A model generated the notes under the pieces. That model had not been told where the DNA came from, searched no databases, and was given only the letters and a program-made list of their open reading frames with translations. 64,000 nucleotides of DNA. Source: Thiohalorhabdus sp. Cl-TMA. GTDB lineage: Bacteria; Pseudomonadota; Gammaproteobacteria; Thiohalorhabdales; Thiohalorhabdaceae. Location of the stretch: positions 62,001-126,000 of the forward strand of contig NZ_JBGUAW010000007.1 of NCBI RefSeq assembly GCF_041821045.1, given 5' to 3'. Within the stretch, counting starts at the first letter, position 1; every line of letters begins with the position of its first letter. Below, piece after piece: positions 2 to 10,059 of this stretch. Position numbers and translations under genes: made by a program.

Positions 2-3000
2 CCCACGCCCGTCCAGGCGGAGGCCTGGCCCGCGGTGGCCTCCGGCCGGCATGCCCTGATCGCCGCGCCCACCGGCTCCGGCAAGACCCTCGCCGCCTTC
101 CTGGCGGCCCTGGACGATCTGGTCCGGCAGGCCGAGGCCGGTCCCCTGGAGAACGCGGTCCAGGTGGTCTACGTCTCGCCGCTTCGGGCGCTCTCCAACG
201 ACATCCGCCTCAACCTGGAGGCGCCGCTGGCGGGAATCGAGGAGCGGCTGAACGCGGCGGGCTCCGCCCCCACCGGTATCCGCACCATGGTGCGCACCGG
301 CGACACGCCCCAGGCGGAGCGCGACGCCATGCGCAAGCGCCCGCCGCACATCCTGGTGACCACGCCCGAGTCGCTGCACATCCTGCTCACCTCCGAGTCC
401 GGGCGGGGCATGCTGGAGACCACCAGGACGGTGATCGTCGACGAGATCCACGCCATGGCCCCCTCCAAGCGCGGCGCCCACCTGGCCCTTTCCCTGGAGC
501 GCCTGGAGGCGCTCGCGGACCGGCCGCTGACCCGGGTGGGCCTGTCCGCCACCCAGAAGCCCATCGTGGAGGTGGCGCGCTTCCTGGTCGGGGCCGGCCA
601 CCTGGATGCCGAGGGCAATCCCGACTGCCGCGTCATCGACGCCGGTCACTACCGGCGCGCCGACTTGGCGGTGGAGGTGCCGCAATCGCCGCTGGAGGCG
701 GTGATGGCCAACGAGGTGTGGGAGGAGGTCTACGACCGGATCGCCGACCTGGCCGCCGGGCACCGCACCACCCTGGTGTTCGCCAACACCCGACGCACGG
801 CGGAGCGGGTGGCCCGCCACCTGGGCGAGCGCCTGGGCGAGGAGCAGGTGGCCGCCCACCACGGCAGCCTGTCCCGCGACCGCCGGCTGGCGGCGGAGCG
901 GGCCCTGAAGCACGGCGAGATCCGCCTGCTGGTGGCCACCGCCTCCCTGGAGCTGGGCATCGACATCGGCGAGGTGGACCTGGTGGTGCAGCTCGGCTCC
1001 ACCCGCACCATCGCCAACTTCCTGCAGCGCGTGGGCCGCTCCGGCCACGCCGTGACGGCCACACCCAAGGGTCGGCTGTTCCCCCTCTCCCGCGACGACC
1101 TGGTGGAGTGCATCGCCCTGGTACGGGCCGCCCGCGACGGCGCGCTGGACCGGCTGTGGATCCGGGAGGCGCCCCTGGAGGTGCTGGCCCAGCAGATCAC
1201 GGCGGAGGTGGCCGCCGAGGGCGAGCTGGCGGAGGCGGAGCTGCTGGCGCGCTTCCGCCGCGCCTACCCGTACCGCGCCCTGTCGGACAAGGCGTTCGCC
1301 GACACCGTGCAGATGCTCGCCGATGGCTTCGCCACCGGGCGCGGCCGCAAGGGGGCGCTGATCCACCGCGATTCGGTGAACCGGGTGCTGCGGCCCAGGC
1401 GCGGCGCCCGCCTCACGGCGGTGACCTGCGCCGGGACCATCCCCGACCAGGGCGACTTCGACGTGGTGCTGGAGCCCGAGGGCCAGGTGATCGGCTCGGT
1501 GAACGAGGACTTCGCCCTGGAGGCCATGAGCGGCGACATCTTCCAGCTCGGCAACCGCAGCTACCGCTTCCTGCGCATCCAGGCGGGCCGCGTGCGCGTG
1601 GAGGACGCCAACGGCCTGCCGCCCAGCCTGCCCTTCTGGTTCGGCGAGGCGCCGGGGCGCACTGAGGAGCTGACCGCCTACGTCTCCGACACTCGGCGCG
1701 GGGTGGAGGAGCGATTGGGGCTGGCGCCGGATGGGCAGCCCGGAGTGGAGGATGGCGGCGGGGACGCCCTGGAGCCCGCCGTAACCTGGCTCGCCGGGAC
1801 CGAGGGCGTGACCCGGCCGGCCGCCGAGCAGGCGGTCGCCTACCTGGCCGCGGCCCGCTTCGCCCTGGGCGCGCTGCCCGCACTGGACACGGTGGTGCTG
1901 GAGCGCTTCTTCGACGAGTCCGGCGGCATGCAGCTGGTGGTCCACAGCCCCTTCGGCAGCCGGGTGAACAAGGCCTGGGGCCTGGCCCTGCGCAAGCGCT
2001 TCTGCCGCAAGTTCAACTTCGAGCTGCAGGCGGCGGCCACCGAGGACACGGTGATCCTGTCCCTGGCCACGGCCCACAGCTTTCCCCTGGAGGAGGCGGC
2101 CCGCTACCTGAGCCCGGAGACGGTGCGCGAGGTGCTGGTCCAGGCCCTGCTCGACGCGCCGCTGTTCACCACCCGCTGGCGCTGGAACGCCACCACCGCC
2201 CTGGCCATCCGCCGCTTCCGCAACGGCGGCCGCACCCCCCCGCAGCTCCAGCGCATGGAGGCCGAGGACCTGATCAGCGCGGTATTCCCCGACCAGATCG
2301 CCTGCTTCGAGAACCTGGCCGGAGACCGCGAGGTGCCCGACCACCCGCTGGTGAACCAGACCATCCACGACTGCCTGCATGAGGCCATGGACATCGAGGG
2401 CCTGGAGCGGGTGCTCGCCGCCATGGGCGACGGCGGCATCCGGGTGGTGGCCGCCGACCTCACCGAGCCCTCGCCCCTGTCCCACGAGATCCTCAACGCC
2501 CGGCCCTACGCCTTCCTCGACGACGCCCCGGCCGAGGAGCGCCGCACCCGCATGGTGCAGACGCGGCGCTACCTGGACCCGGCCACCGCCGCCGACATCG
2601 GCCACCTGGACGCCGACGCCATCGCCCGGGTCCGGGAGGAGGCCTGGCCCGACGTGCGGGACCGCGACGAGCTGCACGACGCCCTGGACCTGCTCGGCGC
2701 GGTCACCGCCGAGGAGGGCGGGACCCACGGCTGGGGCGAGGCCTTCCAAGCCCTGCGCGAGGAAGGCCGGGCCTTCCGCGTTACCGTGGGCGACGGGCCC
2801 GCCCTGTGGGTGGCGGCGGAGCGGTGGGTAACGGTCCGCGCCGTCCATCCCGAAGCGGTGGCGGAGCCGGTACCCCCGGAAAGCCCGGAAGCGGCCCCCG
2901 AGGCCGGGGAGGCCCTGCGCGAGCTGGTGCGGGGCCGCCTCGACGGCCTCGGCCCCACCACCGCCGAGGCCCTGGCCGCCGACCTGCGGGTAACGGTTCC

Positions 3001-4258
3001 TGCGGTGGAGGGGGCGCTGGCCGCCCTGGAGACGGAGGGTGCCGCCTTCCGCGGCCGCTTCACCCCGGACGCGGGCGGTGAGGAGTGGTGCGAGCGGCGG
3101 CTGCTGGCGCGCATTCACCGCTACACCCTCGACCGCCTGCGCCGCGAGATCGAGCCGGTGGAGCCGGCGGACTACACCCGCTTCCTGCTGGAGTGGCACG
3201 CCCTGGCCGGGGAGCCGGCCGCGGAGCATCGCGAGGGCCCCGAGGCGCTGCTGGCGGTGATCGAGCAGCTGGAGGGCTTCGAGGCGCCCGCCGCAGCCTG
3301 GGAGAGCGAGATCCTGCCGGCCCGGCTGCCCGGCTACGATCCGCAGTGGCTGGACCAGCTCTGCCTGTCCGGGCGGGTGGTGTGGATCCGCCTGACACCG
3401 CCCGGGGTGGCGCGCGGGCGCGCGCGGCGCGCCGGCTCCGTGCGCACCGCGCCGGTGGCGCTGGTGCAGCGCAAGAACCTCCCGGACTGGAAGGACCTCG
3501 CCGCCTCCGTGCCGGTATCCGAGGACGGCCTGTCGGGCAAGGCGGCCAAGCTGGAGGAATGCCTGCGCGAGCGCGGCGCGCAGTTCTTCGACGAGCTGGC
3601 GAGCTGCTCCGGCATGCTGCGCACGGAGGTGGAGGAAGCCCTGGGCGAGCTGGTGGCCTGGGGCCGTGCCTCCAGCGACAGCTTCGCCGGCCTGCGCGCC
3701 CTGCTGAAGCCGGCGGAGTCGCGCTCCCGGCGACCCGCCCGGCGCGGCCGGGGGAGGCGCCGCCTGCTCGCCGCCCCGGAGCGGGGGGTGGAGGAGGCCG
3801 GGCGGTGGGCACCGGTGGCTCCCGCCGCCACGCCGGACCCGGAGGGCGGCGCCGATCATGACCCCGCTGCCGTGGAGGCGGCCGCCTGGACCCTGCTGGA
3901 GCGCTACGGGGTGGTGCTCCGCGCCGTGCTGGCGCGCGAGCCGGACTGGCTGCCGCCCTGGCGCGAGCTGCTGCGCGTGCTGCGGCGTCTGGAGGACCGC
4001 GGCGAGGTGCGCGGCGGGCGATTCGTGGCGGGCTTCTGGGGCGAGCAGTTCGCCCTGCCGGAGGCGGTGGGCGCCCTGCGCAAGGTGCGCAAGCGGGGCA
4101 AGGAAGACCACGCGGTCACCGTCGCGGCCACCGACCCCCTCAATCTGGTGGGCATCCTAACCCCGGGGGAGCGGGTCACCGCCCGCACCGGGGAGCGCCT
4201 GCGCTACCGGGACGGCGTGCCCGAGGACCGGAGCGCTTCCCGGTCCCCCGCCCCTTGA
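2..4258 (+). CDS. lhr: Lhr-type ATP-dependent helicase, 5' end outside window
   Basis: Large superfamily 2 helicase of the Lhr family, 3'-5' nucleic-acid unwinding linked to DNA repair. The reading frame is open to the left edge, and the first eleven codons read [11 protein letters not shown], the Q-motif region that normally precedes Walker A. The GTG at 35 is therefore probably not the start, and some upstream codons are missing. Walker A (APTGSGKT), a DEIH Walker B (VDEIHA), the SAT motif (LSATQKP) and the motif VI region (QRVGRSGH) follow in order. About 1000 further residues form the winged-helix and C-terminal domains typical of long Lhr proteins (about 1500 residues in E. coli). The C-terminal third is arginine-rich around 3720-3780. 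Family assignment is secure; exact role in this organism is inferred. Confidence 0.93.
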
Positions 4259-4439: not shown

Positions 4440-5798
4440 ATGAAAGCCGGGGTGATCCGGATCCAGCTTTTGGGGGCACTGGAAGCGCGCGGTCCGGGCG
4501 AAGCATGGATCGCCCCGCGCGGCACCGCCGTGCGCGCGCTGCTCGCCTACCTCCTCGCAGGACCGGAGGAGCGGCCCACGCGCGAGCGCCTGAGCCTGCT
4601 CCTTTGGCCCGACGCGGAGCCGGACGCGGTCCTGGGAAGACTGCGCCAGGTGCTCATCAAGCTGGAGGGGCAGCTGTCCGACTTGCTCCCGGGCCGCTAC
4701 CTCCTGCGCGACCGCAACAGCGTGGGCATCGACCCCGCTGCGCCACTGGAGACCGACTGGGGCGAGCTGCAGCGGCTGCTGAACCAGGGGGCGCCCCGCA
4801 GGGCGGTCGGGCTGGTGGGCGGCCAGGCGCTCGCGGATACGGCCCCGACCTCCCCGGAGCTGGAGGAATGGATGGAGGCCTTCCGGTGCCGGGCCCAGGT
4901 GGCCCAGCTGGCGATCCTGGAGGACGCCGCCAGCGCGGCTCTGAAGGCCGGAGCCCCCGCGGAGGCTCGCCGCCATGCCGACCACATGCTCACCCTGGAG
5001 CCGTGGCACGAGCAGGGGCACCGGCTCATGATGGAGGCGCTCACCGCCCTCGGCGCCCCCGGGGCGGCCATGGCGCAGTTCGAAAGCTGCCGCGCCGTCC
5101 TCCGCAAGGCGCTGGATTCGGAGCCCGAGGAGGCCACCTGCGCCGCCGCCGAGGCCGTCCGCCAAGCCGCGCAGCACCCGGTTACGACCCTGCCCGCCCC
5201 GTACGCCCAGGACCCCCGGTCCTGGCTCCATCCGCTGCCGCGCAAGAAGCTGGAGCACCTTTTCCGGGTCCTCGACGAGGACGGGGACGGTTTCCTGGAG
5301 GAGACGGATTTCCTGCGCAAGGTGGAACGGCTCCGGGAGCCCTTCCGGGTGGGGCGGGGCTCGGCGACCCTGGAAACGGCGCGCGGCTATCTGCAGGGCT
5401 GGTGGCAGCTCATGGCGCCCTGGGCGGGCGGCGACCATTCCGCGGGCGGCCTTAGCCTCTCCGATTGGCTGCGGTTCTGGTGGAGCCAGCAGCAGATCGC
5501 CGGCGAAGTGCTGGAGGATCTGCCCGGGGCCTATTCCTCCCATGACCGGCTCACCACCGAGCTCCTCTTCCGCATCACCGACCGCTCCAGCCAGGGCCAT
5601 CTCACCGAGCGCGACTTCGCGCTCTGGCTGACGAGCTGGACGCCCCACCTGGATGTGGACGCGCCCCGCGCCTACCGCCACCTCACCGCCGGAAACGGCC
5701 TCCTGGACGTGAACGCGGTGGTCCGCGCCACCTACGAGTTCAAGTTCGGCACCATGCCCGGCACGGCCGGCGACGCCCTCTTCGGCCTGCTGCCGTAA
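4440..5798 (+). CDS. BTAD (SARP-like) regulator fused to EF-hand domain
   Basis: A 452-residue protein from the ATG at 4440, which has GGGAG upstream; a TTG at 4386 in the same frame lacks a ribosome site. Residues 1-90 look like the winged-helix of SARP/OmpR-type activators (RIQLLGALEARG, then TRERLSLLLWPD). Residues 90-250 look like a bacterial transcriptional activation domain (BTAD) of helical repeats. The C-terminal 200 residues differ: a canonical EF-hand loop DEDGDGFLEETD at about 279-290 (Asp at 1, 3, 5, Gly at 6) and a degenerate one, DRSSQGHLTERD, near 381. A DNA-binding activator with a calcium-binding half is unusual, so calcium-responsive transcription or protein-protein signalling is inferred. 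It is convergent with dgt, with 8 bases between. Confidence 0.75.
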   Translation: MKAGVIRIQLLGALEARGPGEAWIAPRGTAVRALLAYLLAGPEERPTRERLSLLLWPDAEPDAVLGRLRQVLIKLEGQLSDLLPGRYLLRDRNSVGIDPAAPLETDWGELQRLLNQGAPRRAVGLVGGQALADTAPTSPELEEWMEAFRCRAQVAQLAILEDAASAALKAGAPAEARRHADHMLTLEPWHEQGHRLMMEALTALGAPGAAMAQFESCRAVLRKALDSEPEEATCAAAEAVRQAAQHPVTTLPAPYAQDPRSWLHPLPRKKLEHLFRVLDEDGDGFLEETDFLRKVERLREPFRVGRGSATLETARGYLQGWWQLMAPWAGGDHSAGGLSLSDWLRFWWSQQQIAGEVLEDLPGAYSSHDRLTTELLFRITDRSSQGHLTERDFALWLTSWTPHLDVDAPRAYRHLTAGNGLLDVNAVVRATYEFKFGTMPGTAGDALFGLLP

Positions 5799-7351: not shown

Positions 7352-8905
7352 ATGGCCATCCGAGCACCGTACCTGCCCATTGTCTACGTGCGGGGCTATG
7401 CCGCCCGCATGGACGAGATCGAGGACACCGTCGCCACGCCCTACATGGGCTTCAACCTGGGCGCCACCAAGCTGCGCCAGGACCACGACGGCAAGCCTCT
7501 GCGCTGGATCTTCGAATCGCCCCTGATCCGGCTCATGAAGGATCACGGCTATATGGATGCCTACGCCGACGGCGACTTCCTCTCGGAGCCGGGCGGCGCG
7601 CCGGTCCGGAGCGTGTGGATCTTCCGCTACTACGAGCCGGTTTCCGAGTCCCTCGGGGAAGGAGACCGCCGCACCCTGCCGGAGCTCGCGGCCCATCTAA
7701 GGCGATTCCTGCTCCATACGGTGCGACCGGCGGTCTGCGGCGACGACCCGGACCTCCTGGCCGATTTCCGGGTCCACCTGGTGGCCCACTCCATGGGTGG
7801 ACTGCTCTGCCGCACCTACCTCCAGAACCTCTGCCACAAGGGAACGGGGGACCCGCAACGGGACGAGGCCCTGGAGCTGCCCGGCGATCCGCTGGTGGAG
7901 CGCGTCTTCACCTACGCCACGCCCCACAGCGGCATCGACCTGGAGGGGGTCAATGTTCCGGATCTGGGGACCTGGGACAAATGGCACATCCGCAGCTTCA
8001 ACCGGGACGTGATGCGGGACTATCTCGATCTCCCTGGCGGAACCGAACGGCTGGACTCCCTGAACGGGCGGTTCCCGCCGGAGCGATTCTTCTGCCTGGT
8101 GGGCACCAACTACAAGGATTACCGGGCCTTCCACGGCCTATCCGCACGGGCCACCGGCCCCATGTCCGACGGACTGGTCATGATCCGCAACGCCACCGTG
8201 CGGGATGCCCCGCGGGCCTTTGTCCACCGCAGCCACAGCGGCGACTACGGCATCGTCAATTCCGAGGAGGGCTACCAGAACCTGCGGCGTTTCCTGTTCG
8301 GCGAGGTGCGCGTGGATGCCCGGCTGCACGCCGAGGAGATCACCCTGCCCCGGCCGGTGCAGGAGAAGAAGGACGCCGGACACGCGGTGCGCGCCTCCTA
8401 CCACATCGATTCCGCCGTCAGCCTGCGAAACGCCACCTGCTTCCTGCACGAGCGCCGTTCGGAGCACGGTTCGGCGCTATTGAAGTCCTACGATGCCTGG
8501 GTGAAGGAGGGACGCCCCGCCTATCTGTTCTCCGGCTTTCTCATGCGCGCCGGGAAAGGCCGGGATCAGGGCGACACCGCCCTGGCCTTCGCCCTCCACG
8601 TGGCTGTGCGGGTTCCCGTCTACGAGGTGGACAACCGGTTCTGGCTGGATGGACACTTCGAGGGTGGACCGGTGCTTCAGGACACCGTGACGGTGCATGT
8701 CCGCCCGGACGGCCGCAAGACCACCATCGCCTATGGCTTGGCCTCCCGGGACGGCCTCGGCGAGGCCCGGCGGCGGGCGGGCGTGCAATGGGAGACGGAA
8801 CAAACGGCCCGGGTCCGTTTCCCCCTGGGATTCGCCGAGGACCAGCGACGGGTGAAACGGCCGGGATTCCGGGGCCATCTCGCCATTGACGTCCATGTCC
8901 GCTGA
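7352..8905 (+). CDS. lipase/PGAP1-like alpha/beta hydrolase
   Basis: A 517-residue protein beginning at an ATG preceded by a purine-rich AAAGGGGGG. The nucleophile elbow is AHSMGG with Ser at about residue 147, preceded by a hydrophobic strand (VHLVAHSMGG), as in triacylglycerol lipases and PGAP1-like esterases. After residue 310 the sequence loses hydrolase character and may be a beta-rich accessory domain (residues 320-510). No signal peptide is visible, so a cytoplasmic location is likely. Substrate is unknown. A short C4-loop-G4 hairpin at 8907-8919 with a T-rich tail may be a weak terminator. Confidence 0.7.
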   Translation: MAIRAPYLPIVYVRGYAARMDEIEDTVATPYMGFNLGATKLRQDHDGKPLRWIFESPLIRLMKDHGYMDAYADGDFLSEPGGAPVRSVWIFRYYEPVSESLGEGDRRTLPELAAHLRRFLLHTVRPAVCGDDPDLLADFRVHLVAHSMGGLLCRTYLQNLCHKGTGDPQRDEALELPGDPLVERVFTYATPHSGIDLEGVNVPDLGTWDKWHIRSFNRDVMRDYLDLPGGTERLDSLNGRFPPERFFCLVGTNYKDYRAFHGLSARATGPMSDGLVMIRNATVRDAPRAFVHRSHSGDYGIVNSEEGYQNLRRFLFGEVRVDARLHAEEITLPRPVQEKKDAGHAVRASYHIDSAVSLRNATCFLHERRSEHGSALLKSYDAWVKEGRPAYLFSGFLMRAGKGRDQGDTALAFALHVAVRVPVYEVDNRFWLDGHFEGGPVLQDTVTVHVRPDGRKTTIAYGLASRDGLGEARRRAGVQWETEQTARVRFPLGFAEDQRRVKRPGFRGHLAIDVHVR

Positions 8906-9005
8906 TCCCCCAATAGGGGTTATTGTTAACTGGACATCAATTGGGTAGAACGGGTCTATGGGTTTTCGACTGTTCAGCCATTCACTCCCAACCGGGGAGA
9001 ACATT

Positions 9006-9353
9006 ATGCGCAAGCACATCGTAGCGGGAGCTTCCGTCCTGTTCATCGGCTTGACCTTCGGGTCCACTGCGCACGCCCAGAACGGCGAGGCGGCGGCCCA
9101 GGCCCTCGGCTGCACGGCCTGCCATGCCGCGGAGACCAAGCTGGTGGGACCGGCTTATGTAGACGTCGCGAAGCGGTACGGCGGCGACACCGACAAGATC
9201 CTGGAGCGCATCAAGGCCGCCGTGAACAACGGGGCTTCCGGTAACTGGACCGATGTGACCGGCGGAACGCCCATGCCGCCGCAGCCCCAGGCCTCCGGCA
9301 AGGAGAAGGAGCTGAAGCAGATCGCCGAGTGGATCGCCGGCATGGCCAAGTAA
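9006..9353 (+). CDS. periplasmic class I cytochrome c (c551/c552-like)
   Basis: A 115-residue precursor from the ATG at 9006 (GGGGAGA ribosome site). The signal peptide ends near TAHA. One haem site (CTACH) lies near residue 37, and the distal Met is probably in the PMPPQP segment of TDVTGGTPMPPQP. This is the small c551/c552 electron-carrier pattern, donating electrons to periplasmic or terminal reductases. It is followed by a strong terminator and then by a lipoprotein paralogue with a nearly identical cytochrome domain, so the two arose by tandem duplication. Confidence 0.9.
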   Translation: MRKHIVAGASVLFIGLTFGSTAHAQNGEAAAQALGCTACHAAETKLVGPAYVDVAKRYGGDTDKILERIKAAVNNGASGNWTDVTGGTPMPPQPQASGKEKELKQIAEWIAGMAK

Positions 9354-9372
9354 AGGCCGGGCCGCAGCGCGC

Positions 9373-9407
9373 CGGGCCGCCGGGGCTTCCCGGCGGCCCG
9401 CGTTTTT
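9373..9407 (+). terminator. rho-independent terminator after cytochrome c
   Basis: An 11-base stem (CGGGCCGCCGG at 9373-9383 with its complement at 9390-9400), a six-base loop and a TTTTT run at 9403-9407. It separates the two cytochrome genes into different transcription units. Confidence 0.85.
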
Positions 9408-9516
9408 GGATTCCCGCCCCGAAGGGTGTCATTGCATTCCTTCCCCGGATGGCTTAGGCAGGGGTAATGGACCTGAAATAAAACCCGAGCACGGAGCCAT
9501 ACCGGGAGGCGTCCCG

Positions 9517-10059
9517 ATGCGAACCATAACCCGGACCGCCGCCGCGCTGCTGGCGGGGCTTTCCCTTGCCGCCTGCGACCAGGGTGGCGAGCCGCAGACC
9601 GGCGGATCCCAGGAGCAGGAGCAGGGAACGGGGCAGGCACCCTCCGGCGGCGGGCAGGACGGCGGAGGCGGTGGTCAGGGCGCCTCCGATGGCTCCGCCC
9701 CCGGCGACCAGGCCAGCCCCGAGCGGCAGGCGCAAAACCAGGGTGGTGGAACGGGCGCCCCGGCCGCCGGCTCCGGAGACACGGCACCGGGCGAGCAGGC
9801 GGCCGCGGAGCTGGGCTGCACGGCCTGCCACGCCGAGGAGAACAAGCTGGTGGGTCCCGCCTACCAGGATGTGGCGAAGCGGTATAATCATGACGTAAGC
9901 GAGATCCTGGAGCGGATGCAGGCCGCCGTGGAAAACGGCTCCTCCGGCAACTGGACCGATGTTACCGGCGGAACGCCCATGCCGCCGCAACCGCAGGCGG
10001 CGAGCCAGGAGAAGAAGCTGAAGCAGATCGCCGAGTGGATCGCCGGCATGGGCCGCTGA
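9517..10059 (+). CDS. lipoprotein-anchored cytochrome c with long flexible linker
   Basis: A 180-residue protein from the ATG at 9517 (GGGAGG ribosome site). The N-terminus has a lipobox (LSLAAC), so Cys is expected to be lipidated. About 70 residues rich in Gly, Gln, Ser and Pro form a disordered tether. The C-terminal 85 residues are a class I cytochrome c with CTACH and a TDVTGGTPMPPQP segment, nearly the same as the soluble cytochrome encoded just upstream. It probably works as a membrane-tethered electron carrier moving between a membrane complex and periplasmic partners; partner unknown. Confidence 0.88.
   Translation: MRTITRTAAALLAGLSLAACDQGGEPQTGGSQEQEQGTGQAPSGGGQDGGGGGQGASDGSAPGDQASPERQAQNQGGGTGAPAAGSGDTAPGEQAAAELGCTACHAEENKLVGPAYQDVAKRYNHDVSEILERMQAAVENGSSGNWTDVTGGTPMPPQPQAASQEKKLKQIAEWIAGMGR

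Follow-up and report, generated by a model that had tools for sequence, protein, structure and literature searches.

A SARP-type regulator joined to a calerythrin-type EF-hand domain in Thiohalorhabdus sp. Cl-TMA, with a possible role in calcium sensing

The DNA analysed here (the window) is a stretch of 64,000 nucleotides from Thiohalorhabdus sp. Cl-TMA (contig NZ_JBGUAW010000007.1, positions 62,001 to 126,000 of the forward strand). Near its beginning, one open reading frame encodes a protein in which a SARP-type regulator is followed by a calerythrin-type EF-hand domain (Table 1). The frame opens with an ATG at 4440 and closes with a stop codon at 5796-5798, as in the original prediction, and GGGAG is found about 9 nt upstream of the ATG. 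Its neighbours are an Lhr-type helicase gene (35-4258) on one side and a dGTPase-like HD-domain gene (5807 to about 7250), encoded on the opposite strand, on the other. Operator-like direct repeats, such as SARP regulators bind at promoters when activating transcription, were not found upstream of it, and the regulator has no obvious target gene.

GC content by codon position stays even where the two halves meet, with GC3 values of 0.86-0.96 in every 50-codon window from residue 26 onward, and of 0.906 and 0.914 for the halves as such. The two halves are, therefore, read as one protein, and the same steadiness rules out a frameshift or read-through origin of the fusion. Export or membrane anchoring leaves no sign in 19-residue Kyte-Doolittle windows; as the most hydrophobic of these averages 1.1, with none above it, the protein is expected to be cytosolic.

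Table 1. Features of the fusion gene; positions refer to the window.
Feature	Position	Strand	Residues	Basis or remark
Whole gene, SARP-type regulator fused to calerythrin-type domain	4440..5798	+	452 aa	
OmpR/SARP-type winged helix	4440..4754	+	1-105	alignments; recognition helix about aa 61-80
BTAD, helical activation domain	4797..5162	+	120-241	PF03704, E 3.1e-16
Proline-containing linker	5163..5228	+	about 242-263	sequence, between BTAD and EF matches
Four-EF-hand domain of calerythrin/sarcoplasmic-calcium-binding type	5229..5795	+	264-452	1nya, E 1e-9; Streptomyces matches; shuffles
EF1 loop DEDGDGFLEETD	5274..5309	+	279-290	complete set of calcium ligands; position 12 is Asp; EF-hand_6 match aa 271-292
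EF2 region GGDHSAGGLSLSD	5427..5465	+	330-342	degenerate: no Asp at position 1, one residue inserted; alignment
EF3 loop DRSSQGHLTERD	5580..5615	+	381-392	weak: position 3 is Ser, position 5 is Gln; alignment
EF4 remnant LTAGNGLLDVN	5682..5714	+	415-425	deletion of one residue; no Asp 1 or Glu 12; alignment

Judged by alignment, residues 1-245 are a SARP-type winged helix followed by a BTAD, which bears out what the original prediction had proposed for this half. The BTAD characteristic of SARP regulators is detected by Pfam at 60.5 bits against a cut-off of 22.1 (PF03704, E 3.1e-16), and a profile of N-terminal-half sequences matches AfsR (8hvr, E 1.2e-19) and EmbR (2fez, E 8.7e-14; positions 3-245). 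The winged helix, i.e., the first 105 residues, has no Pfam match on its own, Trans_reg_C included. The N-terminal OmpR-type fold of this family is recognized there through the alignment with three paralogues that match Trans_reg_C (PF00486; E-values 2.7e-8 to 5.6e-4, with one above the curated cut-off), and through the same profile, which for the winged helix alone matches AfsR and EmbR at E of about 3e-6. In addition, the stretch from W56 to P99 aligns without gaps with the sister protein L064.

For the C-terminal half, one canonical EF-hand loop and a degenerate second one had been predicted. EF1 does carry every calcium ligand and EF2 is degenerate, but the count was an understatement, as the 189 residues behind the linker make up, by their alignments, a whole calerythrin-type domain with all four EF-hands. 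Calerythrin (1nya) matches this half end to end (residues 270-439, E 1e-9), as do free-standing Streptomyces EF-hand proteins at 25-29% identity, and these alignments yield the four EF-hands, in two pairs over about 180 residues, by which the calerythrin family is defined. The match does not depend on the canonical loop: when EF1 is left out, the remainder still reaches z = 12.6 against calerythrin and 13.0 against the Streptomyces proteins, with none of 500 shuffles attaining the score in either case. Pfam places the EF-hand (PF13405) just above its cut-off of 25 in the whole protein (25.5 bits, E 8.7e-6) and at 28.4 bits when the C-terminal half is searched alone. The HMM support that had been looked for in both halves is thus found for the BTAD and the EF-hand, and is missing for the winged helix taken by itself; both halves, in addition, match proteins of solved structure. 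Structure prediction was of partial help: the single-sequence model of the whole protein is poor (pLDDT 40), and that of the C-terminal half displays the helix order at a pLDDT of only 53. With the latter model, the best Foldseek match is weak (E 0.018) and falls on juvenile hormone diol kinase, an EF-hand protein, which is mild support.

The layout of four EF-hands over the whole domain and the Asp at position 12 of EF1 are both shared with calerythrin, and the C-terminal end of the domain is shared with the Streptomyces proteins P0004 and L026. These proteins and calerythrin are free-standing (176-187 aa), whereas here the domain is joined to a regulator. The loops differ as well. Calerythrin has three binding loops, EF1, EF3, and EF4, whereas a full set of ligands is present in EF1 alone in the fusion protein; EF1 looks like the sole loop able to bind calcium. 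Since its ligands are complete and EF2-EF4 are degenerate, one calcium site of the calerythrin type is expected, with EF1 beside a non-binding EF2. This is the arrangement reported for calerythrin itself, in which EF1 binds calcium beside a non-binding EF2, and in which changing the Asp at position 12 of EF1 impairs calcium binding (PMC6586675).

The genome of Thiohalorhabdus sp. Cl-TMA encodes four clear BTAD proteins, the fusion included. The other three (L062, L063, and L064) are about 1250 aa long and share 29-32% identity with the fusion protein over their front 245 residues; each consists of a winged helix, a BTAD, and an AAA_16 domain, and two of them have weak TPR matches. L063 also has a weak guanylate-cyclase-like match between the BTAD and the AAA domain. 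The contrast drawn in the original prediction with BTAD proteins bearing NB-ARC or TPR modules, therefore, holds within this very genome: the 452-residue fusion protein has no AAA, NB-ARC, or C-terminal TPR match in Pfam, and so lacks the NOD/AAA plus TPR sensor that stands behind the BTAD in large SARPs (AfsR-like STAND proteins). Because the sister proteins carry AAA, and partly TPR, behind the same front half, the EF domain appears to occupy the place of a sensor. Only two other proteins of the genome have EF-hand_7 matches, L061 (G000:C3:159267-159410) and L059 (G000:C10:84609-84755); both have signal-peptide-like N termini, and one has several EF-like repeats. The fusion protein is, thus, the sole predicted cytosolic EF-hand protein found in its genome.

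AfsR and other large SARPs of Streptomyces, as well as EmbR, likewise combine an N-terminal OmpR-type winged helix and a BTAD with an extra C-terminal module. This module is NOD/TPR in AfsR and FHA in EmbR, whereas the fusion protein has the calerythrin-type domain instead. The combination of BTAD and EF-hands would, accordingly, be a new variant of the large SARPs, represented by one sequence. For AfsR, inhibition of the SARP half by the modules behind it has been described, and ATP relieves it (PMC10936776).

The protein is tentatively read as a cytosolic SARP-type one-component regulator, the calcium module of which acts as a sensor, with activity following calcium; this reading is the likeliest of those considered, if somewhat short of probable. 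The stronger form, a bacterial one-component transcription factor in which a SARP-type activator depends on calcium directly through the four-EF-hand domain, is possible though rather doubtful. The fusion itself, the family of each half, and the one intact and three degenerate calcium loops are shown by the sequence, whereas calcium binding, DNA binding, a restraining role of the C-terminal domain, and the direction in which activity would change are inferred. The protein would follow the large-SARP plan, with the winged helix and BTAD, which in AfsR contact the promoter and RNA polymerase, at the N terminus, and the calerythrin-type domain where the sister proteins hold their AAA/TPR sensor. 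The EF domain would restrain or shape the SARP half; calcium at EF1 would order the EF1-EF2 half of that domain and so alter the restraint, and the activity of the regulator would then follow cytosolic calcium. The presence of both domains in one frame, the end-to-end calerythrin match, the sister architecture, and the lack of an export sign count for the calcium-sensor reading, as do, by analogy, the ATP-relieved inhibition in AfsR and the EF1/EF2 arrangement of calerythrin. On the other side stand the loss of DNA-backbone contacts, the degeneration of three of the four EF loops, and the role of calerythrin-type proteins, which are described as buffers and not as sensors (PMC10574481); the lack of a second example, of upstream direct repeats, and of an obvious target gene also counts against it.

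Alternatively, the EF domain could be a structural or dimerizing module, in which EF1 holds calcium permanently for stability, leaving the regulator blind to calcium changes. This is unlikely, though far from negligible. A canonical loop in EF1 only would suit such a role, and a paper listed in PMC6586675 describes apo calerythrin in its title as a molten globule, so that one calcium could serve folding alone. The SARP domain of AfsR, moreover, acts as a side-by-side dimer (PMC10936776). Nothing specific speaks against the structural role, as a canonical loop with Asp at position 12 fits either one.

The main doubt on the regulator reading comes from the DNA-binding helix. The DNA contacts reported for AfsR (PMC10936776) were mapped onto the fusion protein through the profile alignment and compared with 19 homologous sequences gathered in this analysis. 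W74, P79, and R87 of AfsR are kept as W56, P61, and R69, and R92 is replaced by K74, whereas the contacts to the DNA backbone are changed, Q48 to A30, R94 to E76, and K95 to G77. At position 30, every one of the 19 homologues has Lys, Arg, His, or Gln, and at position 76, 18 of them have Arg or Lys. In L018, an apparent 'EG' at the recognition helix proved to be a misaligned wing segment and was not counted. These apparent losses are the strongest reason to doubt ordinary DNA binding, and would, together with a winged helix that has no Trans_reg_C match of its own, fit a SARP half that no longer binds DNA and works via protein contacts of the BTAD helices or as a calcium buffer. This reading is nevertheless improbable: W56, P61, and R69 are retained, a basic residue (K74) stands at the base contact made by R92 of AfsR, and the stretch from W56 through the wing is equal in length to that of L064. 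Owing to the remaining basic residues, the net charge of the recognition-helix segment (+1) also stays inside the homologue range (-1 to +5). The direct link from calcium to transcription drawn in the original prediction is, at this stage, best worded as a proposal, because the DNA-binding helix has lost AfsR-type backbone contacts and EF1 alone looks calcium-competent.

The fusion was seen in no other genome searched. Neither of two same-genus genomes (one of them 82% complete) contains a homologue, or any BTAD match to the fusion protein. In the other one, the flanks are 87-89% identical in DNA, and the helicase and dGTPase genes lie about 0.4 kb apart, with the fusion gene cleanly missing. 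The gene could also be a decaying orphan, or one that recently arose as an accessory gene, devoid of conserved function. Its absence in one relative, both at the syntenic site and genome-wide, and in the second, incomplete genome would be in line with this, as would the degeneration of three EF loops and, in part, of the DNA-binding helix. With 452 open codons, a codon-position GC bias undiminished in both halves, and a fully intact EF1, however, this reading is quite improbable.

The search for further examples was extended well beyond the genus. No match to the C-terminal half was found in 368 other genomes of the class, and no whole-length family-profile match outside its own genome among 398 genomes of the phylum; the phylum profile matches that were read out are EF-hand proteins that have repeats or begin like a signal peptide, and none of these has a BTAD-like front half. 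Altogether, about 740 genomes of class and phylum gave no second fusion. One BTAD homologue comes from an Anaerolineae MAG; the profile found no match either in about 300 genomes of this MAG's phylum, in a search run without a positive control. Six exact peptide patterns, with which diverged copies can be missed, revealed no second fusion in 84,980 species and only two relatives, each matching in the BTAD half alone. Viral contigs contained no relatives of the protein, and plasmids no second fusion; a plasmid BTAD protein of Azospirillum, which aligns up to residue 309, was rejected as BTAD plus TPR with no EF-hand. The genome-by-genome sampling covered the class, its phylum, and the phylum of the Anaerolineae MAG; both halves are common in Actinobacteria, and the fusion may exist there. 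As no second example was found, purifying selection on it is not measurable. No paper joining BTAD or SARP with EF-hands was found among 5.39 million open papers.

There is no settled answer to whether cytosolic calcium serves bacteria as a direct signal to their genes; the routes known so far mostly pass through two-component systems or calcium-binding proteins with unclear targets (PMC10574481, and partly general knowledge). An activator half and a calerythrin-type half in one polypeptide would, if the reading is true, offer a direct and easily purified test case of a calcium switch.

On the far side of the dGTPase gene lies an alpha/beta-hydrolase-like gene (7352-8905, + strand), which is absent from the syntenic place in one same-genus relative. 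It has no match in either same-genus genome, and relatives were found, at about 50% identity, in two further genomes of the class. A functional link with the fusion gene was considered and is unsupported, as the hydrolase relatives occur in genomes with no fusion match. Further along, two adjacent cytochrome c genes (8958-10059, + strand) align, each at about 79% identity, with a single stretch of the same-genus locus; this pair may, therefore, be a tandem duplication present only in the Thiohalorhabdus sp. Cl-TMA genome.
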